Shown here: positions 11,598-64,000 of the stretch, piece by piece
Layout: each line of letters begins with the position of its first letter
Numbering within the stretch: position 1 is the first letter of the stretch
Source: an uncultured Candidatus Nitrosopumilus sp.
GTDB lineage: Archaea > Thermoproteota > Nitrososphaeria > Nitrososphaerales > Nitrosopumilaceae
Reading direction: 5' to 3'
Length of the DNA stretch: 64,000 nt
NCBI GenBank assembly: GCA_951812655.1
Contig: OX638319.1
Location: 1,403,620 to 1,467,619 of the forward strand
Position numbers and translations under genes: made by a program
The notes under the pieces: model-generated
Databases searched by the model: none
What the model saw: only the letters and a program-made list of their open reading frames with translations
What the model was told of the DNA's origin: nothing

Positions 11598-11652
11598 AGC
11601 ACAATGTTATTGGGGATATAGTTAAGGAAATTATTTCTGGACCCACGTGGAA
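11598..11652 (+). repeat. Half copy (A) of the 96-bp inverted-repeat element
   Basis: This is the right half of the element seen complete at 33144 and 53921. It has the loop sequence in the opposite orientation (AGCACAATGTTATT), then GGGGATATAGTT, then exactly 29 bases to the end of ACCCACGTGGAA. The left half cannot be recognised. The rest of the gap 11432-11811 is AT-rich with no gene visible. Confidence 0.8.
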
Positions 11653-11811
11653 ATAAACAATATTCTAAAATGTTCACAAAAAAACTTGTATTGTCACATA
11701 TATCGTAATTGCCAGTATTTTATTGACAACTCTTTTTAGATTTTAATTTAGGTATGAGACAATAACCAGATCAACAGTTCTTTTAAGCAAGCACATACTT
11801 GAATTTTTAGA

Positions 11812-12561
11812 TTGTATCATTTGTATTTAGATGAAAGTGGGGTGGAAGGACTTTCATCCAATCCAGATAAAAGAAATTTGGATGATGACTGGTTTACTTC
11901 TGGCGGAATCATAGTAAACGAGAAAGAAATCGGGGGATTTGAAACATCACATTCAGAAATAATATCTGAATTCTTTACAAAAAGAGGCGTTACATTACCA
12001 GAAGGTTTCAAGTTACATTATAGGGAAGCAAGGCAGAGACAATGGCCATATGATCATTTGTCTGAGAAAGAGATTGGGGAATTATCAAATTCAGTGTTTA
12101 ACGCAGTTAAGAAGATTAATTGTAAATTAGTATCTGCATCAATCAATAAAAGAAATCATTGTAGTAAACCGTATCCTTATACAGCGAGTGTAAGGGCATA
12201 TTCATTGCTATTATGTTTAGAAAGATTCCAATATTTTTTAGAGGAAAATGGTGAAGACGGTATTAGTATCTATGAAAAACTCACACGCAGTATGAGAAAA
12301 AACATTGAAAAAGATTTGAGAAATTTACGTGAATTGACAAGATTTCCGTTTTTTTCGGATCTCGATAAAATAAAAGGTAAGATCAGAAGTGGTGATCCCG
12401 TAAAAGAAAAAGTGTTACAGTTTGCTGATTATGTTGTCTACCCACCTCATATTTTCTTCTATACAAATCAAAAATGTTCAAACAGACTCAATGAGATTCA
12501 CTACAAATATTATAATGCAAAGGGAAATTGGAAAACTGGCGGTTGTGTGTATATACCATAA
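11812..12561 (+). CDS. DUF3800 family protein
   Basis: A 249-residue protein starting at TTG. It opens with YHLYLDESGVEG, the first acidic strand of the DUF3800 RNase-H-like fold, and has a late LQFADYVVYP segment matching the family's C-terminal conserved Asp. DUF3800 proteins are common cargo of prophages, plasmids and defence islands; a nuclease role is suspected but not proven. It lies between the half 96-bp element and a transposase tail, so it is probably mobile-element cargo. Confidence 0.75.
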   Translation: MYHLYLDESGVEGLSSNPDKRNLDDDWFTSGGIIVNEKEIGGFETSHSEIISEFFTKRGVTLPEGFKLHYREARQRQWPYDHLSEKEIGELSNSVFNAVKKINCKLVSASINKRNHCSKPYPYTASVRAYSLLLCLERFQYFLEENGEDGISIYEKLTRSMRKNIEKDLRNLRELTRFPFFSDLDKIKGKIRSGDPVKEKVLQFADYVVYPPHIFFYTNQKCSNRLNEIHYKYYNAKGNWKTGGCVYIP

Positions 12562-12864: not shown

Positions 12865-12937
12865 ATGCTAACATGTAAGATCTTAACAGGCTTGTAATTA
12901 TTTCATTAAAAAGATATTCAAAAATTGAATAATTTTA

Positions 12938-14125
12938 TTAAATTTTTAAAAGGATTTTTTCATAGATTTTAGGGATTTTACCTTCAGACAAATTCTTCCG
13001 GATGTGCCACAATGTGGATTTGTTAATTCCAAATCTTTTCCTTTCTTCTGGAGTCATATTCAAAATCTTTTCTCTTAATTCCAGATTATACTTTCTGTTT
13101 ACTTTCATTTTAGGCATGACAAATTCAAATTCTTCCTTTTTCCCTACAATGAAATTAGATAACTGTTGTAGGTTATCTTGAAGAATAAATTGATATGAGT
13201 ATTGTTTACCATTCTTGTAACTATATTTAGCATTAAAGTTCGAATTAATCTTTTCAATTAATAATTTAGCAACATCTTCTCCTAACCTAGTATGATAGTT
13301 CTCCGTAATTATAAAATCAGATTTTTTAATCTTCTTTTCTTCCAATAATTGAATCACAGATACATCAATTAGCCATCTAAATAATTCTTGAACGTCGTAA
13401 ACTAACGGTGTTCTGCTCTGATTAATCTCATGCAAAAACCCGATAGAATAATCAAGACCTATTCCATTAATTCCTTTTCTAATCTCAGATTCCAATATGG
13501 CATAACCATAATTCAGCAATGCGTTAATCTCATCAGATGCATTATAATTTCTCGAATTTGATTTGTTCTTTCTTCCTGTAAACTGAAACTCTGGATTTAA
13601 TTGATTAAATATTGCAGTTAGATTCTCAAGATAAATTCCTGATATTCTTCCCTCATATGTCATCAGTTGCTTGATTAATTTTGAAATATCTTGTTTCTCA
13701 CTATTCTTCATTGTATCCAACAGAAACAAATCTTCCTTTTCTACTGCCTTTCTAATTTTGACAATATCTACAGATTCATAGAATCTTGATAATTCCTCCA
13801 ATAGATTCAGAGAATGCTCAACCTTTGCCTGTACTGTCTTCAGGGCAATCTCAAATCTAGATACAGAATCAAGGTACTTTTGGTACTGTTTTATGCGTAA
13901 TTTGCCTGATTTTGGCTGTTCAGGCATCACATTTGCCAATAATTGACCATTCCAATTCAATAATGTAACATTGATGCTGTGCTTTGAGAGCCACCTCATT
14001 GCCTCAAATGTAATGTTGCCAGTATGACCGTCAATGGTTATTCCGTCATGGTTTATCTTGTGAGGGAAAAATTCTAGTCTCATATTTTTTAATTTGTTTG
14101 TGATGATCAGTTTTCTCTTGTCCAC
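12938..14125 (-). CDS. cas1: Casposase-type Cas1 (solo copy)
   Basis: A 395-residue Cas1-fold integrase. The three catalytic positions are visible: E158 (MTYEGRIS), H232 (GFLHEIN) and D244 (LVYDVQELFR), within the Cas1 signature NALLNYGYAI. A C-terminal helix-turn-helix extension (MTPEERKRFGINKSTLWHIR), typical of casposases, ends the protein. No cas2 or CRISPR array is nearby, which argues for a transposon integrase rather than CRISPR adaptation. It starts at GTG (14123-14125), because an in-frame TAA lies upstream with no ATG. Its near-twin is at 58827. Homology between the two copies extends about 35 bp past the stop codon. Confidence 0.93.
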   Translation of the reverse strand: MDKRKLIITNKLKNMRLEFFPHKINHDGITIDGHTGNITFEAMRWLSKHSINVTLLNWNGQLLANVMPEQPKSGKLRIKQYQKYLDSVSRFEIALKTVQAKVEHSLNLLEELSRFYESVDIVKIRKAVEKEDLFLLDTMKNSEKQDISKLIKQLMTYEGRISGIYLENLTAIFNQLNPEFQFTGRKNKSNSRNYNASDEINALLNYGYAILESEIRKGINGIGLDYSIGFLHEINQSRTPLVYDVQELFRWLIDVSVIQLLEEKKIKKSDFIITENYHTRLGEDVAKLLIEKINSNFNAKYSYKNGKQYSYQFILQDNLQQLSNFIVGKKEEFEFVMPKMKVNRKYNLELREKILNMTPEERKRFGINKSTLWHIRKNLSEGKIPKIYEKILLKI

Positions 14126-14165
14126 GTTGATTGATGTTCCAAAACCTGTAATGGGTAACGGATTC
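14046..14165 (-). pseudogene. C-terminal tail of the casposon HTH gene, out of frame over cas1
   Basis: In the other reading frame over the 5' end of cas1, 40 codons run open to TGA (14046-14048) and match the C-terminus of the 300-residue regulator at 59938 (for example THYRFWNINQRGQEK versus THHRFWNVNQCGQEK). The match stops abruptly at 14165, leaving about 87% of that gene missing. This shows that the solo casposase came from a casposon with the same overlapping gene pair. Confidence 0.75.
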
Positions 14166-33143: not shown

Positions 33144-33239
33144 TTACACGTGGGTCCTAAATCATACCCATTAACTATAACCCCAATAACATTGTGCTGG
33201 GGATATAGTTAAGGTGTTTGAAAACATACCCACGTGGAA
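33144..33239 (+). repeat. Complete copy (B) of the 96-bp inverted-repeat element
   Basis: Ends are TTACACGTGGGT and ACCCACGTGGAA (12-bp terminal inverted repeats with one mismatch). The centre is a dyad ACTATAACCCC / GGGGATATAGT around the loop AATAACATTGTGCT. The length is exactly that of copy D at 53921. It lies 53 bp beyond the 3' end of the TFB gene. No flanking direct repeat is obvious. Confidence 0.85.
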
Positions 33240-33291
33240 CAAAGAATCATGTCAAAATAGAAAAAATCGGGAAAAATATTAGATATTACTA

Positions 33292-41257: not shown

Positions 41258-41323
41258 AATTAATGATAAGGGGGTTTCCACTCAATTTTGAACCATTTTA
41301 GTTAGTGCAAAATCTTTGCCACT

Positions 41324-41391
41324 AACTATATCCCCAATAACATTGTGCTGGGGATATAGTTAGGGGTGATAAAAAAAGACCCACGTGGAAC
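41324..41391 (+). repeat. Partial copy (C) of the 96-bp element, abutting polB
   Basis: The central dyad AACTATATCCCC / GGGGATATAGTT with loop AATAACATTGTGCT and the right terminal repeat CCACGTGGAA are intact at the standard spacing. The left 29 bases (expected from 41295) do not match. Similarity to the second casposon polymerase resumes within three bases of the right end. Confidence 0.85.
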
Positions 41392-43615
41392 AAATGTGTT
41401 CTATCCCTATGTCTACAAAGCCCGAGCAAAATGTGTATCATTTAACTTGCCATACGAGTTAAGCAGACTTGCAGCATCATGGGGAACTGCACGAAAAATT
41501 CAGGATGCATTTTCAATGAAACTAGTTGATGGCATCCCACGTCTTCCCGCAATCAGGATAAAAAGCATAAATGGAAATGCGGCATTTGCCCAGTTTGCAA
41601 CTCCGCTGAGAACAAAAAGCGAGAAGAAGAAAGTTCCGACTCATAAGGTGTACCGAGGATACTTTCTTGATTTGAAAACACTAGGTTATGCGATGAGCAA
41701 CAAATCCTTTGATGGGATAAATGACCTTGCAAGAACATTTGAGGTTGATGCAAACTTGAAAAGCAAGAAGGGGATTACTGAAGCTGCAATCCGAAGCAAT
41801 ATGGACAAAACACTAACCGTGCACAACATCTATTGTAAGATTATTTCTGTGTTACAGGATACGTTTTTGGTAAAACCAAACAATGCAAACAAGTTGTATT
41901 CACCAGCTTCAATTGGGAAACTCTATCTTGAGAAGCTAAACATCAAGCCGTTCCTGGAGAAAAATCCAGACTTTTCAAAGAAGGTTATGGGACATTTGAT
42001 GTCTGCATTTTATGCAGGCAGAGTGGAAACAAGAATCAGAAAAACTCCCGTTCCAGTTACGTATCTGGACTGCACAAGCACCTATCCAACATTATTTTGC
42101 CTGATGGACATGTACTCGTTTTTGAGTGCAGAAAAAATTGAAAACTCTGTCACTACAGAACATACCCAGAAATTCCTTGATGATGTTGCCTTACAGAACA
42201 TTTCCAGAAAGGAAACATGGAAAAATCTTGCCACAATCTGCAAAATAGTTCCCGACGGCTCCATGATTGTGCCTGTGCGTTCCGGTTACGGCTCCAATAA
42301 AACCCAGAATACAGGCGTAGACTATCTCAAAAGCACTGATGGAACGAGCCTGTGGTATACGGTATCTGATTTGATAGCCTCAAAGTTACTTACAGGTCAT
42401 CCTCCGACCATCGAGAAGGCAATCACGTTTGTCCCCGTAGGAATACAGCAGAACATTCCTAATGAGGATGTGGAGATTTTCAAGGGAGTGACCGTCAATC
42501 CACGAAAGGGGAATTTCATCAAGCAGTTAATCAAGAAGCGATTGGATATGAAGCAATCGTCATCATCCTCTGTAAATTCTGAAATTGACAAAACGATACA
42601 GAACACGATAAAAATAATTGCAAATACCGCTGCTTATGGAATACACATTCAGGTAAACTCTGAAAAATCTGAGAAGCAGAAAGAACCCGTAACGGTTTAT
42701 GGTATTGATGATGAACCGTTTTCAGTAGATCAAAGCACTCTGGCAAGAAAGGAAATTCCTGCAAAACATTTCAATCCCGTATTAGGAGTGTTCTTGCCTG
42801 CCGCTGCAAGGTTGGTTTTGGCAGCAGCTGAAAGCATAGTTACGTCACACAGGGATGGATATGTGGCTTACATGGATACTGATTCCATAATGGTATCGCC
42901 AAAGCATGCAAAAGAAATTCAGGAGTTTTTTCAGAAACTCAATCCATATGAAAACAAGTACGTGCAGGTTTTCAAGGTTGAAAAATCTGATGATGGAAAA
43001 CTGCTGGAGAACGTGTTTTTCTTTGGAATTTCTTCGAAGAGGTATGTTCTGTTTGAACACGATAATGCGGAAAACAAATTCAATATTCACAAGTTTACGT
43101 CTCACGGATTTGCACATCTATTGGATGTGAATGCAGAGAAATGGTGGAATGACATACTTGCAATGCATTACTTTCCAGAAAGAAGGCAGGACATACTTGG
43201 CAAGTATGATGACAAGTATGCAGCATCTGAGATGAGCATCACGACGCCAAACGTGCTGAAGAGATTTTCCAAACTCAGACCATTCAACAAAATACTTGTC
43301 GGTGCAGGATACAAAAGCGACGACAAGGGCAACGTGGTAATTCCAACCTTGCCACATATTGATGCAAAAAATAGAGAATGCATTCAGTACATGCCATTTA
43401 CGAATTATTCTACAGGTGAGAATTATTCAGACTCTGTGGATACTGTTCCCTACTGGAAGCCACTGAACGAAACACTAGATGACTATGCCAACCACAAGGA
43501 GGTAAAGTCATGTGGAGATGTGGGATTGTTGCCCCGATTACGCATGAAAATAGACAAAAACCTGATAAAATATGTGGGAAAGGAGGTATCAAACATCGAT
43601 GCTTCCAACATCTAG
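41366..43615 (+). CDS. Casposon-type family-B DNA polymerase, N-terminally truncated copy
   Basis: 749 codons. The polymerase motifs are intact: YLDCTSTYPT (motif A, D235), KIIANTAAYG (motif B, K416/N420) and YMDTDSIMV (motif C, D504/D506). The roughly 180 residues between A and B fit an insertion such as the TPR regions of protein-primed polymerases. Compared with the copy at 62074, about the first 115 residues (Exo I region) are missing. The first nine codons here are read out of the right end of repeat C. The twin copy is very similar throughout. It may still polymerise but lacks a complete proofreading domain. Confidence 0.9.
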   Translation: MIKKDPRGTNVFYPYVYKARAKCVSFNLPYELSRLAASWGTARKIQDAFSMKLVDGIPRLPAIRIKSINGNAAFAQFATPLRTKSEKKKVPTHKVYRGYFLDLKTLGYAMSNKSFDGINDLARTFEVDANLKSKKGITEAAIRSNMDKTLTVHNIYCKIISVLQDTFLVKPNNANKLYSPASIGKLYLEKLNIKPFLEKNPDFSKKVMGHLMSAFYAGRVETRIRKTPVPVTYLDCTSTYPTLFCLMDMYSFLSAEKIENSVTTEHTQKFLDDVALQNISRKETWKNLATICKIVPDGSMIVPVRSGYGSNKTQNTGVDYLKSTDGTSLWYTVSDLIASKLLTGHPPTIEKAITFVPVGIQQNIPNEDVEIFKGVTVNPRKGNFIKQLIKKRLDMKQSSSSSVNSEIDKTIQNTIKIIANTAAYGIHIQVNSEKSEKQKEPVTVYGIDDEPFSVDQSTLARKEIPAKHFNPVLGVFLPAAARLVLAAAESIVTSHRDGYVAYMDTDSIMVSPKHAKEIQEFFQKLNPYENKYVQVFKVEKSDDGKLLENVFFFGISSKRYVLFEHDNAENKFNIHKFTSHGFAHLLDVNAEKWWNDILAMHYFPERRQDILGKYDDKYAASEMSITTPNVLKRFSKLRPFNKILVGAGYKSDDKGNVVIPTLPHIDAKNRECIQYMPFTNYSTGENYSDSVDTVPYWKPLNETLDDYANHKEVKSCGDVGLLPRLRMKIDKNLIKYVGKEVSNIDASNI

Positions 43616-43621
43616 GAGTTA

Positions 43622-43884
43622 CAGGAGATTCTGGTAGTTGTACCGTCTATGACAATCTCGAGGAGAGGATACTTGGGATTAGACCGAGGGATTCACACAG
43701 ATTTGGAATATCCAGAAGCAACCTGATTGCAATACAAAGGAAAATCAAATGTAAGGACTCACAGGTAAAACTCCAGAAAGGAACCGTCAGAAAACTCCGA
43801 AAGGCATTTTCTGATGCTGTTTCGGGAAATTTCCGGAATGATAGAAAAACTATGATTGAACCGGAGGTGATAATGAAACAATGA
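43622..43884 (+). CDS. ORF with casposase-like C-terminal HTH
   Basis: An open frame (continuing from 43510 inside the polB 3' end) whose unique part reads LEERILGIRPRDSHRFGISR then SNLIAIQRKIK. It lines up with the casposase tail LREKILNMTPEERKRFGINK followed by STLWHIRKNL. No ATG starts the unique part cleanly, so it may be a remnant or be translated by readthrough/coupling from polB. The stop overlaps the next ATG (ATGA). Confidence 0.45.
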
Positions 43885-44312
43885 CCGGAATGATAGACGA
43901 GAATGCCGGATTGATAAATCAAGATGCCGGATTGATAACTGACAACACCGGAATGATAGAAAGTTCTACCGGAATGATAGACGAGAATGCCGGATTGATA
44001 ACCGAAACTAATGACACAAAACATATCGTAAACGGGAGAAGAAGACGGAGTAAGGAAAGGGGAAAGGACAGCAAACCGAGAAACTTTCCACTACATACGA
44101 TGAAGAATCTGCCACAGTTCAGAAATAAATCTCATCAGGAAGTTAGACAGTACATACTAGAAAAGAAAGGAGTAGATATTGGCAGTAACTTTGACTTTGG
44201 AAATTTAATGTTGGGGGTTTTTGTGGTACTTGCAATCATTGCAGGGACAATCGGTATCGCAAAATGGTTGCAGCAGCGACAAGAAACAAAAAAATTAGAA
44301 ATACCTAATTAG
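43881..44312 (+). CDS. Membrane protein with heptad repeats at N-terminus
   Basis: 143 residues. The first 42 are six 7-residue repeats of the pattern (T/A)G(M/L)I-x-x-x (TGMIDEN, AGLINQD, AGLITDN, TGMIESS, TGMIDEN, AGLITET). A basic stretch (GRRRRSKERGKDSKPR) and a C-terminal helix (about 112-132) follow. It is coupled to the upstream ORF by ATGA. The coding repeats are also perfect 21-bp DNA repeats (separate entry). Function unknown; a membrane-tethered DNA-associated protein is possible. Confidence 0.6.
   Translation: MTGMIDENAGLINQDAGLITDNTGMIESSTGMIDENAGLITETNDTKHIVNGRRRRSKERGKDSKPRNFPLHTMKNLPQFRNKSHQEVRQYILEKKGVDIGSNFDFGNLMLGVFVVLAIIAGTIGIAKWLQQRQETKKLEIPN
43885..44010 (+). repeat. 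Six 21-bp tandem repeats (iteron-like) inside a coding region
   Basis: CCGG(A/T)ATGATAG or CCGGATTGATAA begins at 43885, 43906, 43927, 43948, 43969 and 43990, exactly 21 bp apart (two helical turns). A further single copy lies at 43832. The core is almost the reverse complement of the TTATCAATTCGG repeats at 17.6-18.1 kb. Confidence 0.85.
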
Positions 44313-52014: not shown

Positions 52015-52575
52015 CTATTCGTAAACCATCAGGTTTTTCTGCTCAAGCTCGTTGTGGATGCTGTTGACCGAACGATGTATCGCATCTTCTTGCTTTGCAC
52101 CAGCACAGACTATCTTTCCTGAAGCAAAAATCAGAATAACCGTCTTTGGATCAATCATCCGGTGAATCACTCCTGGGAACTGCTCTGGCTCATACATGCT
52201 TCTAGGAAGAACTCTGGCTGCCTGCTCCAGACTCACCTTGCCTCCCAGATTGATTGATGATACTATGTTTTGTATCGTCACTATGGGCTTGTTTTTTATT
52301 TTGATCTTGCCCTTTCTTAGCTTTTGAACAACCGTATTTACGGCCTTGACTGCCATCTCTTTGGATTTGCCGCCAGTGCACACCATATTTCCGGAACGAA
52401 AGAGCAGTGTGGTGGTCTTTGGATTCTGAAGTCAGAATATTGCTCCTGGAAATTGTTCCGGATCATATTCCACGGATGGGAATTTTTCGGTTATGTCATC
52501 GAGGTCAAGTGGTTGTTCTATCGTTGCAGAAGCCACCACGTTGACTATCTCGATTATCGGTTTGGTCTGCGCCAT
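52015..52575 (-). pseudogene. tbp: TATA-binding protein gene with in-frame TGA
   Basis: The minus-strand frame from the ATG at 52575 reads [20 protein letters not shown] then [11 protein letters not shown], then TGA (52432-52434, codon 48), then LQNPKTTTLLFRSGNMVCTG and the whole second repeat (MYEPEQFPGVIHRMIDPKTV). Repeat 1 and repeat 2 align, and Arg (CGA) is expected where TGA stands (compare GVIHRM). A single C-to-T change explains it. Without it the product would be a normal 186-residue TBP. Internal starts after the TGA would give only about 1.3 repeats. Confidence 0.85.
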
Positions 52576-53744: not shown

Positions 53745-53920
53745 TTCTGTGGTAAAGTCTTGTTCATTTATTGATAAAAGTGTAAACTTGAACCTGTCCA
53801 AAAAACATGGAATGTTTTTGAACTGATCTGTTATTACCTGATGAAAGATCTGTATAAAATCATCTATGGGGGATAATTACAAGATTGGGACATGATCATT
53901 TTTCATCAGAATAGATTTTT

Positions 53921-54016
53921 TTACACGTGGGTATGGGAATGACCTCCTTGACTATATCCCCAATAACATTGTGCTGGGGATATAGTTAGTATAGTAGAAA
54001 TCAGACCCACGTGTAA
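53921..54016 (+). repeat. Complete copy (D) of the 96-bp inverted-repeat element
   Basis: TTACACGTGGGT at the left and ACCCACGTGTAA at the right are perfect 12-bp terminal inverted repeats. The central dyad ACTATATCCCC / GGGGATATAGT encloses the loop AATAACATTGTGCT. It lies just left of the RusA-to-casposon gene island. Core genes stand on its left side. Confidence 0.88.
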
Positions 54017-54100
54017 CTATCATGTTTCAGAATTTGGAAAAATGAGTTCTTTTAAGATGGATGTATTTAATAGATTATTTACAATATGTGTCAATAAATC

Positions 54101-54517
54101 TTGAAATCTAAGAAACTTGAAAACCTGTATAGGCCAGTACGAATTAACTTCAACCCTTTAACATCAGGCAACAAAGTAATTGAAAGAAAAATAAAATTGC
54201 GTAATTTACTCAAAGAAGCATACGGAAAAGATATTGAAAAAGTTAGGAATAAGTCAAAGAATTCTCAAAAATTATCAATTGATGCTTGTTTTTACCTACA
54301 AAAAACCAATGAGATTGGAAGAGCAAAAAAAGATTTGGACAATCTATTAAAAATTCTGTGCGATGTGTTGCCCAAGTACATGACTGCCTCAAATGAGCAT
54401 GAGGGTTTAGGCATAATAGAAGATGATGATCAGATATTTGAGATACATTGCAAAAAGGAAATTATTGAATTTGAAAAAGAGGAGGGTTTGGAATTTACAA
54501 TATCAAAAATAACTTAA
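54101..54517 (+). CDS. RusA-like Holliday-junction resolvase
   Basis: 138 residues from a TTG. The RusA signature is present: KKDLDNLLKILCDVL (metal-binding D-x-DN) and later GIIEDDDQIFEIHCKKE (DD-Q). RusA homologues process branched DNA and are typical of phages and mobile elements. It is the first gene to the right of repeat copy D and faces away from the receiver-kinase pair. The TTG start is the best available. Confidence 0.7.
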   Translation: MKSKKLENLYRPVRINFNPLTSGNKVIERKIKLRNLLKEAYGKDIEKVRNKSKNSQKLSIDACFYLQKTNEIGRAKKDLDNLLKILCDVLPKYMTASNEHEGLGIIEDDDQIFEIHCKKEIIEFEKEEGLEFTISKIT

Positions 54518-54694
54518 CAGATTCGAACTTGTGTGAAGTATTGAACCTGTTCTGTAATACTCTATGAGGGAATTATTCAAAAATTATTAAATATTTTTCA
54601 ACAGGGCATTCTGATTATAGAAAATAAAAGTTCGTTAATAAATTTAAGATGAATTTTGTTTTTTAATATTCTTCATACGTAAAATGATTCTCTT

Positions 54695-55351
54695 TTAATT
54701 GTCTGAGCGTAAAAATCCTTTACCATGATCTTCTTCTAATCGGGAATTTTTTATACATTCATCAGTAATTACCTGTTTAATCGATGATTCTCTTTCTTTT
54801 GAAATTTTTCCTGAGACAATTTCATGCATCCATTCTTGGATGGATTTTGTTTCATTTTCAACAGTTACTGTATTCTGATGTATTCGTAATCCTTCAACAA
54901 TATTCCTAATCTGTAGTATTCGTTCTGCCCCACTTCCCAAAACTTCACAGATTTTTCTTACAATTTCCTCTGATAGTTTTTCAGTTTTCCACTTGTCGAT
55001 AATGACTGAAATTCCTTTTGCATGTATTTCTTCAATCCTTTTTGGGGATGTAGCAAATGCTGAAACTACTATAGCTGGGATGGCCTTTCCCAGATAGAAT
55101 AATTTATCATATTCTTGATGGCCTTCTTTGGCATACTTTAGTTCTATGTCCAATATCATCAAATCAATTTGATTTTTCTCATCATTAATTATGTCAAATG
55201 CTTCTTCGGGCTCTTTTATTATGGTGATTTCAATATCGTTAATTTCGGTGTCTAAAGATTTGAAAAATTCGGTCTCTAATGCACAAATATTATATCTTAA
55301 ATCCTCTACAAATTCAACTTCATCATCAAGCCACAATACCCTAACTTTCAT
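54695..55351 (-). CDS. Receiver-domain protein with unknown output domain
   Basis: 218 residues. The receiver fold is visible: acidic pair D9/D10 (LWLDDEVEF), phospho-acceptor D68 (LMILDIEL), S97 (VVSAFAT) and K120 (VIIDKWK). Residues about 125-218 are helical with no DNA-binding motif that I recognise (IVEGLRIHQNTVTVENETKS, IQEWMHEIVSGKISKERESS). Its start overlaps the stop of the kinase gene (ATGA), so the two are cognate. No HTH means the output is probably protein-protein or enzymatic. Confidence 0.8.
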   Translation of the reverse strand: MKVRVLWLDDEVEFVEDLRYNICALETEFFKSLDTEINDIEITIIKEPEEAFDIINDEKNQIDLMILDIELKYAKEGHQEYDKLFYLGKAIPAIVVSAFATSPKRIEEIHAKGISVIIDKWKTEKLSEEIVRKICEVLGSGAERILQIRNIVEGLRIHQNTVTVENETKSIQEWMHEIVSGKISKERESSIKQVITDECIKNSRLEEDHGKGFLRSDN

Positions 55352-57516
55352 TTTTTCAATTCCTCTAACGGTATTGTAATATTAAATGTTGCACCTTCTT
55401 CTATCTCGCTATTTTCTGACAATTCTATTTTACCCCCATAATCATCTAACATTTCTCTTATTATTGGTAATCCTAACCCTGTTCCCTGTTTATTAGTCGT
55501 ATAAAATACTCTAAAGATTTTTTCTTTGTTGATCGGCTTTATACCATGGCCATTATCACTAAATTTTACTTTGAAATTTTTTGAGTCTTTCAAAATTGTT
55601 ATTTTCATTTTTCTTTTTACTCCTTCAGGTAGTTTTTGAACAGATTTCAAAGCATTTGTAAATAAATTGAGAAACATTGATGAGAAATCTGCCCTATGCA
55701 TATAGATTGAAAAGTTTTCTGGAGTAATTTTTGCAGATATAGTAGTCTCGTTTCTTTTGGTAATTCCTGTAAAATCTTCTAAAAATTTATTTAATTCTTT
55801 AGATACATTGATTTTTTCTCTTTCACGTTTTAATTCATTTTCTGACGATAAACTTTCTACAAAATGAATTATGAATCCCATGTAATATCTAATTGTGTTA
55901 ATCCTGTCATTTGCAGTTTCAAGATCTTTTTCTATTAGTTCTCTTGCTTCTGCGTCTTTCTTTAGTTTATTCATCACTTTTTCTGGAATTGCACCTAAAT
56001 GACCTATGGCTTCTTTAATTTCATGTGCTGTTGTTGCTGAAGAAATTCCTAATGATGCTAAATTTCTATAAGATCTTTGAGTAGATTCTAAAATGTCTAT
56101 TTCGTCTTCTGATGTCCTTTCATAATCATTAAACGTGTCTAGAATATCTTTAACTACACTTCTGAATCTCTTTTTATCTTCAACTGGTAATGGACTGGTA
56201 TTAATCATATCTTTCAAATGTTTAATGTCTGAAGAAATTAGATTCTCATGTTGTTTTTTTGTTTGTTTTTCTTTTATTTTTCTGTTAAGTTCTTTTCTGT
56301 AAAAACTCATAGAATCAATTGATTCTTTTACAAATGTGCGCATACTATGAAACCCTGTATTTTCTACTAATCTTTCTCTAGTTGTGGTATCTACTATCAA
56401 TGGATTCCCATCTTTGGATAACTGAACAAATCCAATTACTTGTGAATTTCCAATTTTGTAATTTGCTTGAACTCTTTCTCCTTCTAAACTGAGCCAATCA
56501 TCATTTAATTCTCCATAGGGTCTTACCCAAAAACCATCTCGATAAATTTTGACTCCGTGTAAATCTGATAATGTTTGTCTTATGTTGTTGATATTGAGTG
56601 ATTTTTTGTAATATTTGTTCCAATCTTCGTATTTTGATTGTCCCGGAAAGAAGTAAATTGTTAACTTGCATTTTCCAAACGGTGTCCATTTTTCACCATT
56701 TTCCATAACCACATCTGAAAAATCAATTTTTTCTTCAAAAATTATGTCCCTTTCCTGTCTTACGCTAACTTTTCCTGAATAACCATTTTCTGAAATTGTT
56801 GCAACAATTTTGTATGGTGCATATCTAAATAAAATACTTTGAACTTTAGGAGATTCCACGCCTTCAAATTCATCTGCAAATACATTTACTTCAAATTTAT
56901 CGTCTTTGATATCTGCTAATTCTTTTGGAAGAACTAGTGATCCTAATGCTAAACGTAATCGATTGATTTTTTGTGTAGCCCATTCTTCTCTTAGTCTTTC
57001 TAAAACAATTGTTACTCCCTCATCGTTTTTATCTTCACGATTTTTAATTTCTAAAGGATTTACTATTTTATCAAATGTTACTGAATCTTTTTCATATTCG
57101 TCCCAATCTACTGTTAATTTAATTTCATCTTGAGTTCTACGTGGCTTTGAGATTATTGTTACAGTTTTACATAATTTTTCGGTTGCAAATCTTCCTATTC
57201 CTTTATTTCCTATGACTCTTCTTTTTTTGTATTTAGTTACAGGGTGCCTTTCTTTATCATCTGTTCCAATCACCATCCATTTGTTCTCAATTGAATCTGC
57301 ATCCATCCCATGACCATTGTCTTTAATTGTGATTTTTGCATTTTTTCCATCATCTACGGTAAAATTTTCAAATATTACATCAACATTTCTTGCATCTGCA
57401 TCATATGCATTTTTAATCAATTCAAACAATGCTGCTACGTCACTTGAAACCGATTCTCGTCCGAGTAATCGAGCCATTTTCCCACTGAATTTGAATTGTA
57501 TGGATTTTTTTTGCAC
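55348..57516 (-). CDS. Kinase with two GHKL ATPase domains (Hsp90-like plus histidine kinase)
   Basis: 722 residues. The N-terminal GHKL domain has LFELIKNAYDADARNVDV (N-box), KDNGHGMD and GNKGIGRFATEKL, as in Hsp90/MORC/MutL-type ATPases. A middle domain to about 420 follows. The C-terminus is a histidine kinase: ATTAHEIKEAIGHL with phospho-acceptor H498, N-box LNLFTNALKSV, G1 DNGHGIKP and G2 GTGLGLPI. There is no membrane segment or PAS sensor, so the Hsp90-like part is presumably the sensor. This architecture has been seen near restriction and defence genes. It is the partner of the receiver protein. Confidence 0.85.
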   Translation of the reverse strand: MQKKSIQFKFSGKMARLLGRESVSSDVAALFELIKNAYDADARNVDVIFENFTVDDGKNAKITIKDNGHGMDADSIENKWMVIGTDDKERHPVTKYKKRRVIGNKGIGRFATEKLCKTVTIISKPRRTQDEIKLTVDWDEYEKDSVTFDKIVNPLEIKNREDKNDEGVTIVLERLREEWATQKINRLRLALGSLVLPKELADIKDDKFEVNVFADEFEGVESPKVQSILFRYAPYKIVATISENGYSGKVSVRQERDIIFEEKIDFSDVVMENGEKWTPFGKCKLTIYFFPGQSKYEDWNKYYKKSLNINNIRQTLSDLHGVKIYRDGFWVRPYGELNDDWLSLEGERVQANYKIGNSQVIGFVQLSKDGNPLIVDTTTRERLVENTGFHSMRTFVKESIDSMSFYRKELNRKIKEKQTKKQHENLISSDIKHLKDMINTSPLPVEDKKRFRSVVKDILDTFNDYERTSEDEIDILESTQRSYRNLASLGISSATTAHEIKEAIGHLGAIPEKVMNKLKKDAEARELIEKDLETANDRINTIRYYMGFIIHFVESLSSENELKREREKINVSKELNKFLEDFTGITKRNETTISAKITPENFSIYMHRADFSSMFLNLFTNALKSVQKLPEGVKRKMKITILKDSKNFKVKFSDNGHGIKPINKEKIFRVFYTTNKQGTGLGLPIIREMLDDYGGKIELSENSEIEEGATFNITIPLEELKK

Positions 57517-57573
57517 AAATAATTACTAATTTCTAACCTTAAATTCTCATTGGTTGTTGTGGATAATTCGTAC

Positions 57574-58599
57574 CTAATTTCCGATTAAAATTTCTGGTTT
57601 TTTGATATTTTTGCATTTTGAATTGATTTTTAATGTCTTGATAATCTCATATCCGATCAAAAATATGATTGGAACCACCACAGAATTTCCAAATTGCTTG
57701 TATGCTTGTGTGTCTGAAACCTGAATCACAAATTCTTCAGGAAATCCCATCAATCTTGCACATTCTCTGGGAGATAATTTTCTTGGATTGCTGTTTCTTC
57801 TAGGGATTAATATTTCTGATCCATCCTTACCATATCTCGCACTAAGTGTACATGATGTCTTTTTTGGATCAGCCATCCTAAATCCAAAACCATTGCCCTT
57901 TGCAGAATGTTTCTTTGCGTGGTTTTGCAACCAATTCCAAGTGTTATCTGATAAAATGTATTTTTTATTTACATTTTTTTCAAATACTTGTTTTAACTGG
58001 GGTTTTAGATCAGGTATTTCTGGAAATTCAAAATTAATTCCTTTTCTTGTTGCGACAATGTATAACCTTTCTCTTCTTTGTGGTACTATGGTTTCCGCAC
58101 TGATTATTTTCCATTTACAATCATATCCTAATTTTTTTAATTCATTCAAAATTATGTCAAATGTTTTTCCTTTGTTCATTTTTACAAGACGTGGAACATT
58201 TTCTAAAAATATCACTTTGGGATTTTTCTCTTCAATGATTTTTATAATTCTAAAAAATATTTGTCCTTGAGTGTCATCTGCAAACCCATCTTTTTTATTT
58301 AGGAATTTTCTTGTTGCAAACCCACTTTTTGAAAACGGCTGACAAGGAAATCCTGCAAGTAAAACGTCATGTTTGGGAATATCTTTAATTGGGATTTTTG
58401 TAATGTCTCCATATGGTGTGTTACCAAAGTTTTCACGGTATGTTATTTGACAATATTTATCCCATTCAGATGTAAATACACATTCTCCTCCTAAATTCTC
58501 AAATGCTAAACGCATCCCGCCAATCCCACTACAGATATCACTAAACGTAAATTTTGTCTTGCCTATCTTTGGAGAAAAATCAAACCTAACTCTACTCAT
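57574..58599 (-). CDS. DNA (cytosine-5-)-methyltransferase
   Basis: 341 residues with the C5-methyltransferase motifs in order: I FSDICSGIGGMRLAFENLGG, IV GFPCQPFS with catalytic C86, VI FLENVPRL, VIII QRRERLYIVA, a target-recognition region (about 200-260) and X YKQFGNSVVVPI. It methylates cytosine in a sequence that cannot be read from the protein. No restriction endonuclease is visible beside it. It is the gene next to the kinase on the same strand, 57 bp upstream. The cargo looks like a methylation-linked defence or stabilisation module. Confidence 0.93.
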   Translation of the reverse strand: MSRVRFDFSPKIGKTKFTFSDICSGIGGMRLAFENLGGECVFTSEWDKYCQITYRENFGNTPYGDITKIPIKDIPKHDVLLAGFPCQPFSKSGFATRKFLNKKDGFADDTQGQIFFRIIKIIEEKNPKVIFLENVPRLVKMNKGKTFDIILNELKKLGYDCKWKIISAETIVPQRRERLYIVATRKGINFEFPEIPDLKPQLKQVFEKNVNKKYILSDNTWNWLQNHAKKHSAKGNGFGFRMADPKKTSCTLSARYGKDGSEILIPRRNSNPRKLSPRECARLMGFPEEFVIQVSDTQAYKQFGNSVVVPIIFLIGYEIIKTLKINSKCKNIKKPEILIGN

Positions 58600-58826
58600 A
58601 ATTTTGATTCAAAAATTCCAGGTTAAGTGTCCAGGTTTGTCATTGCAGATCAAAAGATCTAAGAACTTTAACCAGTTTTTTTGTTCAGACATTATTTTTT
58701 ATTTTTTCTAAAAATTTATTTATTCTCACCATCTAGTGAGGAATATAAGTCAACCAAGGTCTCTATATTTTACGCTCTTTCATTTGCAATTACCTTATTA
58801 AAAATATCTTCAAAATTTGAATGATT

Positions 58827-60059
58827 TCATTGAATTTTTAAAAGAATTTTTTCATAAATTCTGGAAGTTTTACCTTCAGACAAATTCTTCTTGATATGCC
58901 ATAGTGTTGATTTGTTAATTCCAAATTCTTTCCTTTCTTTTGCAGTCATACTCATAATCTTTTCTCTTAATTCTAAGTTATCATTTCTATTCAACTTCAT
59001 TTTAGGAATGGTAATTCCAAATTCTTTCTTTTTCTCTACAATGAAATTTGATAATTGTTGTAGATTATCTTGTAAGATAACTTGATATGAATAATTTTTA
59101 CCATTCTTGTAATTGCATCTAGAATTAAAATTTGAATTAATCTTCTCAATGAATAATTTGGCAACATTCTCACCCAGTCTAATATGATAGTTCTCTGTAA
59201 TGATGAAATCGGATTTTTTGATCTTCTTTTCTTCTAATAATTGAATTATCGATACATCGATGAGCCATCTGAACAATTCTTGAATGTCATAGACTAATGG
59301 TGTTCTGCTTTGGTTAATCTCATGTAGAAATCCAATTGAATAGTCCAATCCAACAGAATTAATTGACTTTCTAATCTCTGATTCTAAAATTGCATAACCA
59401 TAATTCAGCAAGGCATTTACTTCATCTGATGCATTATAGTTTCTAGAGTTTGTTTTGTTTTTTCTTCCAGTAAAGTGAAACTCTGAATTTAGTTTATTGA
59501 ATATTGCAGTCAGATTTTCATGGTAAATTTTAGCAATTCTTCCCTCGTATGTCATAAGTTGTTTGATTGATTTTGAAATATCCTGACTTTCACTATTCTT
59601 CATTATATTCAACAAAAACAAGTCTTCCTTTTCTGCTGTCTTTCTAATACGGATAATATCCACAGATTTATAGAATCTTGACAATTCTTCTAACAGATTC
59701 ATGGAATGTTCTACCTTGGTCTGTACTATTTTCAGAGCAATCTCAAATCTAGCCTCAAAATCAAGATATTTTTGATACTGTTTTACGCGTAATTTGCCTG
59801 ATTTTGGCTGCTCTGGCATGACATTTGCAAGCAACTGACCATTCCAGTTCAATAAAGTTAGATTGATGTTGTGCTTTGAGAGCCATCTCATTGCCTCAAA
59901 TGTTATGTTGCCAGTGTGGCCGTCTATGATAATTCCGTCATGATTTATCTTGTGAGGATAAAATTCCAGTCTTGTATCTTTGAGTCTGTTTGTAATGATC
60001 AGCTTTCTCTTGTCCACATTGATTGACGTTCCAAAACCTGTGATGAGTAACGAATTCAT
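58827..60059 (-). CDS. cas1: Casposase-type Cas1
   Basis: 410 residues from the ATG, or 396 from the internal GTG at 60017, which is the only possible start in the twin copy at 12938. Numbered from the GTG, catalytic residues are E158 (MTYEGRIA), H232 (GFLHEIN) and D244 (LVYDIQELFR). The C-terminal HTH (MTAKERKEFGINKSTLWHIK) is conserved. Without gaps it aligns over its whole length with the solo copy. It integrates the casposon by its Cas1 activity. The 5' end overlaps the regulator gene out of frame by 122 bp. Confidence 0.94.
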   Translation of the reverse strand: MNSLLITGFGTSINVDKRKLIITNRLKDTRLEFYPHKINHDGIIIDGHTGNITFEAMRWLSKHNINLTLLNWNGQLLANVMPEQPKSGKLRVKQYQKYLDFEARFEIALKIVQTKVEHSMNLLEELSRFYKSVDIIRIRKTAEKEDLFLLNIMKNSESQDISKSIKQLMTYEGRIAKIYHENLTAIFNKLNSEFHFTGRKNKTNSRNYNASDEVNALLNYGYAILESEIRKSINSVGLDYSIGFLHEINQSRTPLVYDIQELFRWLIDVSIIQLLEEKKIKKSDFIITENYHIRLGENVAKLFIEKINSNFNSRCNYKNGKNYSYQVILQDNLQQLSNFIVEKKKEFGITIPKMKLNRNDNLELREKIMSMTAKERKEFGINKSTLWHIKKNLSEGKTSRIYEKILLKIQ

Positions 60060-60840
60060 CTGGATGCCTCACGTCTTCTGCCCCAATAGTTTTTAGAAAT
60101 GCCTTTAGATGCTTCTTGAATTTGGCATATGTTATCTTGCCTTCTCTGTACTGATGAATCAGTCTTCTCTCCTCATCATATGCCGTACCATTGTCCATGT
60201 TTTCGCAAATGTCAAGCTCTTCTTTTGTTACCTTTTTGTATTTTTCAAGGGAATTCCTCTCTATTGATTTTATCAGTTCCGGGTAGTCAATAGAGAGTTC
60301 AAGTATTACGCTTCCGTGTTTTGTCTTGTCCAGTTTGATCTTTTTGTTTTTTACATCATCACATATTTTCTCAAACAGAAACTCGTTTACTGCAATTGCC
60401 GTATCCTTGGTGATTGGATTTGCATCAATCATGGTCTTGTCTAAGATAAGATCGTCCTCTATTCCCCACGGATAGTAGGTACTGATGACCGAAAGGTTTT
60501 GTTTTGAATAATCATTATGGTACTGTCCCCCATCTTCGAGCATCTCTGTTCTTTTGTGATAGATGAATTCTAGAATCTTGTATTTTTTTGTCCCGTTGTC
60601 GGTAATCTCATAGGCCTGATGTCCCTCATGAATTATTTTTGCAATTCTCTTTTGAGACAACAGATCCTTTAACATCAAATTCAATCCCCTGGGGGATTTT
60701 CCAGCTAATCGTTCCAGATCCTTGAATCTTTGCGGCCCATGCTTGTTTAGAATCTTCAGAATCTTGAACCGGTTGTATTCCTTTCTGGACATGATGAGCG
60801 GCTCATCAATCTTTGATAAAGTATCATTTGCTATACTCAT
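59938..60840 (-). CDS. Casposon winged-HTH regulator overlapping cas1
   Basis: 300 residues. Residues about 20-90 are a winged HTH (FKILKILNKHGPQRFKDLER, GKSPRGLNLMLKDLLSQKRI, wing IIHEGHQAYEITDNGTKKY), as in ArsR/HxlR-like regulators. A helical domain follows. The last 40 residues are read out of frame over the start of cas1. It starts 10 bp from a perfect palindrome, so it probably represses its own and the divergent polymerase-side operon. Confidence 0.72.
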   Translation of the reverse strand: MSIANDTLSKIDEPLIMSRKEYNRFKILKILNKHGPQRFKDLERLAGKSPRGLNLMLKDLLSQKRIAKIIHEGHQAYEITDNGTKKYKILEFIYHKRTEMLEDGGQYHNDYSKQNLSVISTYYPWGIEDDLILDKTMIDANPITKDTAIAVNEFLFEKICDDVKNKKIKLDKTKHGSVILELSIDYPELIKSIERNSLEKYKKVTKEELDICENMDNGTAYDEERRLIHQYREGKITYAKFKKHLKAFLKTIGAEDVRHPDEFVTHHRFWNVNQCGQEKADHYKQTQRYKTGILSSQDKS

Positions 60841-61098: not shown

Positions 61099-61586
61099 CG
61101 CCGTTGTTTCAGAGATCATGGAGAAAACTGTCTCCGCGGCAAAAAATGCTGCGTGAGAGGTCACTTGCAGTGATTAGCGAACTGCGCAACACAAAAAGCA
61201 AAACATTACCGCAAGCAGCAAACGACAATAACGTCACTGTCAAGAATGTCATCAAGCACACAAACGGTTTCAAGAAAGTAAATGGCAAACCCGTCGTAAA
61301 GCGATGGGACAGAATCAAAAGGGTGATGAGAGTCAACTCTGGCGGCAAAGAGAAAAGTTTAGAGGTTCAAGATTCCAGAACTGCGTCAGTTGTGGGACGA
61401 TACCACAATGCAGTGAAGCAGTTCTTGAATACCGGAGATAAATCCAAACTATCCAAGTTCAGAAATAAGAAAGTTAAGGATAGTAAGGGGAAACTACATC
61501 AACTCGAAACCAATCCCGATGAGATAATCAGGATAAACCAAAGGATTGAGGAACCCGAGTTTTACGAGGTGTACAATACAAAATGA
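61095..61586 (+). CDS. Putative HTH DNA-binding protein of the casposon
   Basis: 163 residues from the coupled ATG at 61095. The N-terminal part reads LSPRQKMLRERSLAVISELR, then TLPQAANDNNVTVKNVIKHT, an HTH-like pattern (LPQAAxxxxVTVxxV) resembling homing-nuclease and transposon DNA-binding segments. The rest is strongly basic (FRNKKVKDSKGKLHQLETNP). It shares a 4-bp overlap with the HNH gene. Not a named family to me. Confidence 0.6.
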   Translation: MTPLFQRSWRKLSPRQKMLRERSLAVISELRNTKSKTLPQAANDNNVTVKNVIKHTNGFKKVNGKPVVKRWDRIKRVMRVNSGGKEKSLEVQDSRTASVVGRYHNAVKQFLNTGDKSKLSKFRNKKVKDSKGKLHQLETNPDEIIRINQRIEEPEFYEVYNTK

Positions 61587-62077
61587 CTGTCAATCAAACC
61601 GCCCAGGTAAACAAGATTGTCAGTTTGCAAACATTGTTAGGATTCTGCATCGGCAGACTCAGAGACGATACCCTTGACACCGTTGATGACATAGAATCAT
61701 GGATAAACGAGATTGTCTGCAAATCCAAGAACAGGTCAATGCAAGAAAAGAAGAACAGATGTGAGATTTGCAATTCCAAGGAAGAACCGTACAACCTGGA
61801 ATTGCACCACATCGCAGGAAGAAAGCATGATTACCGCACCATTACAGTGGACAGGAAATGCCATCATGAATTAAGCGAATCTCAGAAAACTTGGGACAGT
61901 AGGTGGTTGCAGGAAAACCAGTCCGAGAATGTCCGTCTGGGGTTCTTGCTCATGGGGATTCATGACGTGCTGATGCTCAAGGGCCAAAACACCAGAAATA
62001 ACGCATATGAGGAACTGGCAAGGAAACTGCGCCAAAGAATCTACCAGTCGCTGAACGTGGAGGAAGAATACGCATGA
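61583..62077 (+). CDS. HNH endonuclease of the casposon
   Basis: 164 residues. The HNH core is at about 59-97: RCEICNSKEEPYNLELHHIA and CHHELSESQKTWD, with zinc Cys C60/C63 and C93 region and the catalytic His pair H75/H76. It is a nicking or cleavage enzyme probably used in replication, excision or target cleavage. Overlaps both neighbours by 4 bp. Confidence 0.88.
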   Translation: MTVNQTAQVNKIVSLQTLLGFCIGRLRDDTLDTVDDIESWINEIVCKSKNRSMQEKKNRCEICNSKEEPYNLELHHIAGRKHDYRTITVDRKCHHELSESQKTWDSRWLQENQSENVRLGFLLMGIHDVLMLKGQNTRNNAYEELARKLRQRIYQSLNVEEEYA

Positions 62078-64000
62078 AACTGGGCAAAATGGGCGTGATC
62101 AATGTACCTCAGGCAGAGTCAATCAGCCTCAGATGCTATACTGGAAACTACAGGCCTGTCTCACGCTATTCCCACAACGAAAATGCCAATAATGGAATGG
62201 TGTTAACTTTCAGCACTGAGACCACTTCTGACCAGCAACAGACCCTGACCTTTGGCTCCTGTGCAGTCTGGATTAACGGCACATTGTATAAGATTTGTCT
62301 TTTCCATGATGAGAATCGGGACTCCGAGAAAGTTGATATGATAAAAAAAGTTGGAGAAACACTGCAAAAAGAAAAGGACTGCATTGTAACCGTATCATCC
62401 AAGGATGAGTTTGTGACAAGGGTCTTCTATCCGTATGTCTATGAGGCAAGGGCAAAGTATGTCGGCTTTGACTTGCCATACGAGTTGTCTAGACTTGCAT
62501 CATCATGGGGAACTGCAAGAAAAATCCAAGATGCGTTTTCAATGAAACTAGTTGATGGCATTCCACGTCTTCCCGCAATCAGGATTAAGAGCATAAACGG
62601 AAATGCGGCATTCATCCAGTTTGCAACTCCGCTAAGGACAAAAAGCGAGAAGAAGAAATTCCCAACCCGCAAGGTGTACAGAGGGTATTTCCTGGATTTG
62701 AAAACAATAGGACATGCAATGAGCAACAAGTCCTTTGATGCAATGGATGGACTTGCAAGAACGTTTGATGTAGATGCAAACCTGAAAAGCAAGAAAGGGA
62801 TTACGGAAGCTGCAATCAGAAGCAATGTGGACAAAACACTGACAATGTATAATATCTACTGCAGAATTATTTCCGTGTTACAGAATACGTTTTTGGTAAA
62901 ACCAAACAATGCAAACAATCTGTACTCTCCAGCTTCAATTGGGAAACACTATCTAGAGAAGCTAAACATCAAGCCGCTCCTGGAGAAAAATCCAGATTTT
63001 TCAAAAGAAATTCTAGGAAACATGATGACTGCATTTTATGCAGGACGGGTCGAAACCAGAATCAGAAAAACACCCGTTCCAGTTACTTATCTGGATTGCA
63101 CCAGTACCTATCCTACAATGTTCTTGCTGATGGAAATGTATCCGTTTTTGACTGCAGAGAAAATTGAACATTCTGTCACTACACAACAGACGCAGAAATT
63201 CCTTGATGGGGTCACCCTGCAGGACGTTTCACAAAAGGAGACATGGAGGCAGCTGACCACAATCTGCAAGGTAGTTCCAGACGGCAACATGATTGTGCCT
63301 GTACGCTCCGGATACGGCTCCAAGAAAGCCCAAAACATAGGCGTAAACCCTCTCAAAAGCACCGATGGAACGAGCCTGTGGTATACCGTATCTGACCTGA
63401 TAGCCTCAAAGTTGCTTACGGGTCACACATCAATAATTGAAAAGGCAATTACATTCTCTCCTGCAGGAATACAGCAAAACATTCCTGATGAGGACGTGGA
63501 AATTTTCAAGGGAGTGACAGTCAATCCGAGAAAAGAGAATTTCATCAAGCAACTAATCGAGAAGCGGTTGGAGATGAAGCGACCCTCAGAAAATTCTGAA
63601 ATTGATAGCACAATACAGAACACGATAAAAATAATCGCAAACACCGCAGCATACGGCATACACATCCAGGTAAACTCTGAAAAATCTGAGAAGCAAAACG
63701 AACCAGTAAAGGTCTATGGAATTGATGAATCGTTTTCCATAGATCAAAACACAGTATCAAGAAAGGAGATTCCTGCAAGGCACTTCAATCCCATATTGGG
63801 AGTCTTCTTGCCTGCAGCTGCAAGGTTAGTTTTGGCAGCCGCCGAAAGTATCGTTACATCACACAGAGACGGATACGTTGCCTACATGGATACAGACAGC
63901 ATTATGGTTTCACCAAAACATGCAAGTGGGATTCAGAAGTTTTTCCAGAAACTCAATCCATATGAAAACAAGGACGTGCAGATTATGAAAGTTGAAAAAT
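62074..64000 (+). CDS. Casposon-type family-B DNA polymerase, 3' end off window
   Basis: The open frame from the ATG at 62074 (coupled to the HNH stop) runs to the window edge with 642 codons. Residues about 40-75 are the likely Exo I region (VLTFSTETTSDQQQTLTFGS, where DTET would be expected), followed by an Exo II-like GFDLPYELSRLA near 130. Motif A is YLDCTSTYPT (D341), motif B KIIANTAAYG and motif C YMDTDSIMV. It copies casposon DNA. About 115 residues at its N-terminus are missing in the sister copy at 41366. Whether it is protein-primed rests on family knowledge, not on anything seen here. Confidence 0.92.
   Translation, partial: MKLGKMGVINVPQAESISLRCYTGNYRPVSRYSHNENANNGMVLTFSTETTSDQQQTLTFGSCAVWINGTLYKICLFHDENRDSEKVDMIKKVGETLQKEKDCIVTVSSKDEFVTRVFYPYVYEARAKYVGFDLPYELSRLASSWGTARKIQDAFSMKLVDGIPRLPAIRIKSINGNAAFIQFATPLRTKSEKKKFPTRKVYRGYFLDLKTIGHAMSNKSFDAMDGLARTFDVDANLKSKKGITEAAIRSNVDKTLTMYNIYCRIISVLQNTFLVKPNNANNLYSPASIGKHYLEKLNIKPLLEKNPDFSKEILGNMMTAFYAGRVETRIRKTPVPVTYLDCTSTYPTMFLLMEMYPFLTAEKIEHSVTTQQTQKFLDGVTLQDVSQKETWRQLTTICKVVPDGNMIVPVRSGYGSKKAQNIGVNPLKSTDGTSLWYTVSDLIASKLLTGHTSIIEKAITFSPAGIQQNIPDEDVEIFKGVTVNPRKENFIKQLIEKRLEMKRPSENSEIDSTIQNTIKIIANTAAYGIHIQVNSEKSEKQNEPVKVYGIDESFSIDQNTVSRKEIPARHFNPILGVFLPAAARLVLAAAESIVTSHRDGYVAYMDTDSIMVSPKHASGIQKFFQKLNPYENKDVQIMKVEK

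Follow-up and report, generated by a model that had tools for sequence, protein, structure and literature searches.

The genes for a soluble dual-ATPase histidine kinase, a response regulator and a C5-cytosine DNA methyltransferase form a recurrent module, and in the archaeal genome studied here that module travels as the cargo of a casposon. We lean toward seeing it as defence cargo akin to restriction-modification, with a His-Asp phosphorelay that would gate the cutting. The window, i.e., the whole stretch of DNA that was analysed, is a 64-kb part of a 1.67-Mb genome in a single contig; coordinates above 64000 continue its numbering. Genes for TATA-binding protein and TFIIB mark the genome as archaeal, and its size, gene content and casposon family suggest a Nitrosopumilus-like thaumarchaeon. 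On the minus strand, the methylase (57574-58599, 341 aa; PF00145 DNA_methylase, 300 bits), the kinase (55348-57516, 722 aa; HATPase_c_3, 93 bits, and HATPase_c, 90 bits) and the receiver (54695-55351, 218 aa; Response_reg, 25.4 bits, under the cut-off of 30.2) follow one another in that order, and the coordinates of the open reading frames describe one compact operon. A gene for a RusA-like Holliday-junction resolvase (54101-54517, plus strand; PF05866 RusA, 26.8 bits, cut-off 22.8) lies beyond them. The initial annotation had placed the kinase, receiver and methylase genes in an island between a repeat copy, termed D, and a casposase, and had named RusA along with them. Pfam and the reading-frame positions agree on all four genes, and both flanks were found: repeat D at 53916-54017 and the casposase, a 410-aa Cas1-solo protein (Pfam Cas1, PF01867, 207 bits), at 58827-60059 on the minus strand.

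The association of these genes was assessed in 92 loci, 80 of which came from a kinase-alignment scan of bacterial and archaeal genomes of many phyla; the other 12 were added plasmid and thaumarchaeal loci. For these locus counts, a small profile together with motif rules served to identify methylases. The motif rules that we wrote for HNH and metallo-beta-lactamase proteins missed nearly all of them, and Pfam tallies are used for both. In 66 of the 92 loci a methylase is encoded no more than three genes from the kinase, versus 5 of 490 background genes taken at least five genes away, and it is the immediate upstream gene in 37 of 75 testable loci. The gene that follows the kinase (at least 100 aa, same strand) begins no more than 60 bp after it in 89 of the 92, and overlaps it or lies within 5 bp in 82. 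Pfam recognised N6_Mtase (19), DNA_methylase (14) and Eco57I (10) among the 67 upstream neighbours scanned, Response_reg in 26 of 88 first downstream genes, and HNH (14) and Lactamase_B (10) in 73 second downstream genes. Within a sample of the same order, 17 of 400 genomes have the kinase. A C5 or N6/N4 methylase stands within four genes of it in 13 of the 17 thaumarchaeal kinase genomes; G105, G336 and G302 have the kinase and no methylase nearby. Kinase, receiver and methylase are therefore a recurrent module, far above chance. Chance adjacency, with kinase and receiver homologues never found beside the methylase, had been named in advance as the outcome that would undo the proposed neighbourhood; the co-occurrence counts (66/92 vs 5/490; 13/17 in Thaumarchaeota) rule it out.

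The kinase had been described as a soluble protein with an Hsp90/MORC-like ATPase fused to a histidine kinase, and the Pfam matches to HATPase_c_3 and HATPase_c bear this out. Its HATPase_c_3/paraMORC-like ATPase occupies residues 28-145 and is followed by a middle region, His498 and HATPase_c (611-718). Nine residues (E32, N36, D39, D66, R380, His498, N617, N621 and G680) are invariant in all 90 aligned kinases; thus, both ATPase sites and the phospho-acceptor are retained. The suggestion that the Hsp90-like domain is the input side is reasonable in view of this invariance of the catalytic residues, and a 2021 paper (PMC8011034) had already put it forward. The N-terminal ATPase (residues 18-190) also matches the ATPase part of the BbrUII/HgiDII restriction family (NCBIfam NF050001) at 86.5 bits. 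This is well below the family cut-off of 550, and the kinase differs from those enzymes in having a kinase core where the rest of the profile is unmatched.

The methylase retains the PCQ and ENV motifs and is, by sequence, an active-looking C5 DNA methyltransferase. Its top PADLOC model is DrmMII (413 bits), a likeness to DISARM, and PADLOC found no other DISARM components in nine neighbouring proteins. No cognate restriction endonuclease, as would define a Type II restriction-modification system, was present among the proteins scanned at the locus. Indeed, the claim of a methylase without a visible restriction enzyme holds: no restriction-enzyme family occurs in the ten genes scanned, save for one whose ATPase part is also present in the kinase. 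The methylase is 83-85% identical to that of the G070 operon. Between the window and G070, identity falls from 83% in the methylase to 42% in the kinase and 26% in the receiver, and dN rises from 0.12 to 0.55 and 0.87, respectively; kinase residues 330-400, at 70% identity, exceed the kinase-wide value. Synonymous changes in this comparison are saturated or almost so, and a dN/dS reading was dropped, with dS of the methylase saturated. A conserved methylase beside a diverging kinase and receiver fits the notion of an unchanging mark and a fast-changing detector; because dS is saturated, gene exchange could also have caused the unequal divergence.

An AlphaFold model of the receiver built with 30 relatives has a mean pLDDT of 82.8; modelled alone, without an alignment, the protein reaches 42. 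Residues 1-147 of the model match solved receiver domains (best Z 14.6, rmsd 2.3), and the modelled structure thus confirms the receiver fold despite the sub-threshold Pfam score. The list of solved structures that match covers mainly these residues. The C-terminus is modelled as a helix, a beta-hairpin and two helices. Phospho-acceptor Asp68 is invariant; with His498 of the kinase (90/90), the residues of a two-component His/Asp pair are present in the sequences. The C-terminal module is common to the window, G070 and G269 and is without a detectable match in other clades. Comparison of profiles between clades gave probabilities of at most 2.2 for the C-termini, whereas whole receivers match at 93. 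On these non-matches, we rejected one C-terminal domain shared by receivers across clades.

Like the receiver C-termini, the neighbouring genes are clade-specific. In a kinase tree made by a quick method, the window groups with G070 (support 99), and G087 and G105 come next. The closest relatives, G070 and G269, have C5 methylase, kinase, receiver and Vsr genes, with Vsr adjoining the methylase. Elsewhere the further genes vary with the kinase clade and encode HNH, metallo-beta-lactamase or Vsr proteins, or an unnamed protein of ~250 aa that, in a large kinase clade, follows a receiver of ~370 aa. Bacterial operons with the full set of methylase, kinase, receiver and HNH are seen, for instance, in the Pantoea and Flavobacterium loci L076 and L059. 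In G033, genes for N6/N4 and C5 methylases, a restriction enzyme of the LlaMI family and Vsr are clustered behind kinase and receiver (L021 12297-15968); a G033 methylase with 57% identity to that of the window adjoins a LlaMI-family enzyme, which makes a CCNGG-like target site a weak guess. Two DPANN archaeal loci (L032 7965-9665 and L033 7983-9707) have the same N-terminal ATPase fused to DUF4145, without the kinase core, and also carry Vsr-like and C5 methylase genes. Because DUF4145 stands in place of the kinase core in these two proteins, the comparison suggests that the N-terminal ATPase is the constant part and that the output is exchanged. The unnamed protein has the conserved pattern W-H-x-D-[RK]-H ... 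H-P-x-Y-H ... P-R-[IL] ... P-x-D; it is found at L039 11301-12014 and as the second gene after the kinase in L050, L043, L047, L067, L095 and L104, and the single one scanned alone had no Pfam match.

How might these parts work together? In the mechanism that we propose, the methylase would mark resident DNA, and the paraMORC/MORC-like ATPase, working as a dimer clamp driven by ATP, would detect DNA that is unmarked or foreign in some other way. Closing of the clamp would switch the C-terminal kinase, leading to phosphorylation of His498, and the receiver would then take over the phosphate at Asp68. Once phosphorylated, the receiver would engage an effector nuclease via its clade-specific C-terminal module; candidates in the relatives are the HNH, metallo-beta-lactamase-fold or Vsr proteins, which we infer, from position alone, to be the effectors. 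The sequences establish the components and how often they occur together; marking, DNA sensing, phosphotransfer, cutting and protection are proposed on that basis. Nuclease-family genes of restriction-system type in the relatives make a defence role plausible, and a restriction-type immune system with a phosphorylation switch is suggested because the module recurs beside DNA-cutting enzymes in both bacteria and archaea. More tentatively, a MORC-like clamp-kinase may sense unmarked DNA and free an interchangeable nuclease via receiver phosphorylation, with the whole moved among archaea by casposons and other elements. If the relay does gate cutting, it would link two-component signalling to the discrimination of self from non-self DNA, the sensor being a soluble DNA-clamp ATPase, and casposons would carry immune cargo, as other mobile elements do. 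Because receiver C-termini and neighbouring genes go together clade by clade, the target of each receiver can be tested directly. Together, interchangeable neighbours, matched receiver C-termini and an archaeal casposon carrier amount to a specific, testable mechanism.

The carrier is defined by its ends. Repeat D is read as the junction of two casposon ends and forms the left end of the unit that holds the module; its inverted TIRs, CACGTGGGT...ACTATATCCCC and GGGGATATAGTTA...GACCCACGTG, enclose a 14-bp duplication, AATAACATTGTGCT (53962-53975). The same 14 bp lie between TIRs at 33185, at 41336, at 74444 (~10 kb past the window) and once more ~20 kb further. Five TIR-TIR junctions were located, at 33144-33243, 41310-41394 and 53916-54017 in the window and at L004 11018-11124 and L114 11397-11486, and we read them as the TIR-duplication-TIR joints of a tandem casposon array. 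Judged by its ends, the 20-kb stretch from 53976 to ~74443 is probably one casposon. It holds the module, the casposase, a gene with a hint of an HxlR-like winged HTH (59938-60840, minus strand; PF01638, 15.3 bits, under cut-off), an HNH-like gene (61583-62077, plus strand; weak DUF968 and AI2M-like HNH matches, under cut-off) and an intact family-B DNA polymerase (62074-64000 and on to ~64908, plus strand; 944 aa, motifs NTAAYG and YMDTDS). Cas1, PolB, TIRs and a target-site duplication thus surround the cargo, and together with the HNH/HTH genes they resemble the family 1 casposons of Thaumarchaeota (PMC4046053, PMC6563490). The island had been placed merely next to the casposon; it is instead casposon cargo, inside a TIR-bounded unit. 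A half copy of the junction, with its 14 bp inverted, was also seen at 11598-11657 in the window, as were weaker matches near genome position 1.30 Mb.

The array as a whole has three casposase copies (window 12892-14165 and 58784-60057; L004 14079-15311, genome position ~1.481 Mb), 81-83% identical in DNA and spread over ~65 kb, and two polymerases. Among the stretches read, only the unit from 53976 to ~74443 combines a casposase with a full-length polymerase. That polymerase is 82% identical in DNA to the copy at 41390-44209. The reading frame of the second copy (41366-43615) is shorter (749 vs 944 aa) and had no Pfam match; repeat C (41310-41394) overlaps its start, as if the start had been removed by a junction. 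In the three casposase-bearing units the cargo slot, which runs from the 3' end of the casposase to the nearer end of the unit, is filled differently: by a DUF3800 gene in one, by the module plus RusA in another, and by small genes along with a Swt1-like HEPN gene in the third. The DUF3800 gene (11812-12561) sits in this position between repeat A and the first casposase, and the Swt1-like HEPN gene (L004 11154-11999) adjoins junction E and occupies the corresponding slot of the next unit that has a casposase.

The module lies between the left end of the casposon and its casposase gene, which raises the question of whether it serves the element instead of the host. Methylase and relay could retain the casposon by addiction, killing cells that lose the methylase, or could tie transposition to the host state, with no antiviral role; tyrosine integrases close to related copies in G033, and probably also in G070, are consistent with such a function. 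We consider this explanation doubtful. The modules are borne by different mobile elements, and because its relatives are found in diverse phyla, on elements of many types and in varied genomic surroundings, the module is not tied to casposons. Further, defence and addiction are not mutually exclusive in restriction-modification systems, which weighs against maintenance as the sole role.

If the module is a phosphorylation-gated restriction system, as we favour, the window copy is in want of a nuclease: no effector nuclease gene was found among the genes scanned in its operon. For this reason the effector may have been lost or may act in trans. A Vsr gene on the chromosome at genome position 501996, which has no adjoining methylase, is a candidate for an effector in trans. 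A search of the casposon itself found no trace of Vsr (best tblastn E 0.40), which rules out a remnant there. Loss of the effector could also mean that the module has decayed to a solitary methylase that continues to methylate, perhaps beside an idle relay; G070 and G269 have Vsr, whereas the window operon has no nuclease. Such decay is unlikely, given that the motif residues of kinase, receiver and methylase are all intact; under drift, the kinase should have lost its own.

Transcription is the usual target of two-component systems, and the kinase and receiver could be a regulatory pair that controls expression of the methylase or the casposon and nothing else. KdpE and VanR, which are OmpR-type proteins, align along the whole receiver model, albeit at 5 A rmsd. 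This explanation is nonetheless very unlikely. The receiver, correctly described at the outset as overlapping the kinase gene (by 4 bp) and lacking a DNA-binding domain, has no DNA-binding family by Pfam; enzyme genes are the partners of its relatives; and methylases of different types (C5, N6, N4) replace one another freely, which a promoter-specific regulator would leave unexplained. That RusA is the effector nuclease of the window copy is extremely improbable: it is the closest nuclease gene, ~180 bp from the receiver gene, but it is convergent to the module, not co-directional, and its closest relatives do not adjoin the module. RusA had been named together with the three genes of the island; its relatives in G009, G030 and G010 have no kinase, receiver or methylase nearby and stand apart from the module, which rules it out as a member.

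Modules of this kind have a precedent in bacteria. Bellieny-Rabelo (2021; PMC8011034) described HEF_HK kinases and their Response_reg_2 partners in the vicinity of genes for C5 methylases, Vsr and HNH proteins, observed that HATPase_c_3 stands where a sensor would, and suggested that these systems are functionally tied to restriction-modification. Like those proteins, the window kinase is soluble and has the order HATPase_c_3, DHp-like region and HATPase_c, with an adjacent receiver and a C5 methylase nearby. Unlike them, the window proteins are archaeal, casposon-borne and outside both Pfam models: the kinase has no match to HEF_HK (PF19191) up to E = 1, and the receiver matches Response_reg (25.4 bits), not Response_reg_2 (PF19192). 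Across our loci, one of 13 kinases scanned matched HEF_HK, weakly, and one of 88 downstream proteins matched Response_reg_2; N6/Eco57I methylases and metallo-beta-lactamase neighbours are common in the loci surveyed here. The system had been called uncharacterised. The word fits insofar as no experimental test of such kinase/receiver/methylase systems was found in the literature within reach, which excludes most subscription papers and bioRxiv, but the kind itself has been described for bacteria since 2021; what is new is archaeal proteins outside both models and a casposon as carrier.

Other GHKL ATPases offer further parallels. The paraMORC ATPases have been assigned to restriction systems (Iyer 2008; PMC2292703), and the window protein shares with paraMORC/MORC families an N-terminal GHKL ATPase and a setting of methylases, Vsr and HNH nucleases. 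In those families, paraMORC1-5 are described as having S5 domains, in some cases with a nuclease or TIR domain at the C-terminus, and SFII helicases are frequent in MORC operons; the window protein instead has a full histidine-kinase core and a receiver partner. VcSduA, a GHKL-nuclease of the paraMORC3 type, protects against phages (PMC12137116), and GHKL ATPases can therefore serve defence, in another architecture. Casposons with DNA methylases are already known (AciBoo-C1 and HenMar-C1; PMC4046053). A kinase-receiver-methylase cargo appears not to be described in PMC4046053, the main text of which does not contain the term "response regulator", or in PMC6563490, the main text of which does not contain "kinase".

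Outside the casposon unit, an ORF at 52015-52386 encodes a TATA-binding-protein-like product of 123 aa that matches the later part only of the family models. A full-length paralogue of 186 aa is encoded at L004 18520-19080, ~30 kb from this shorter ORF.
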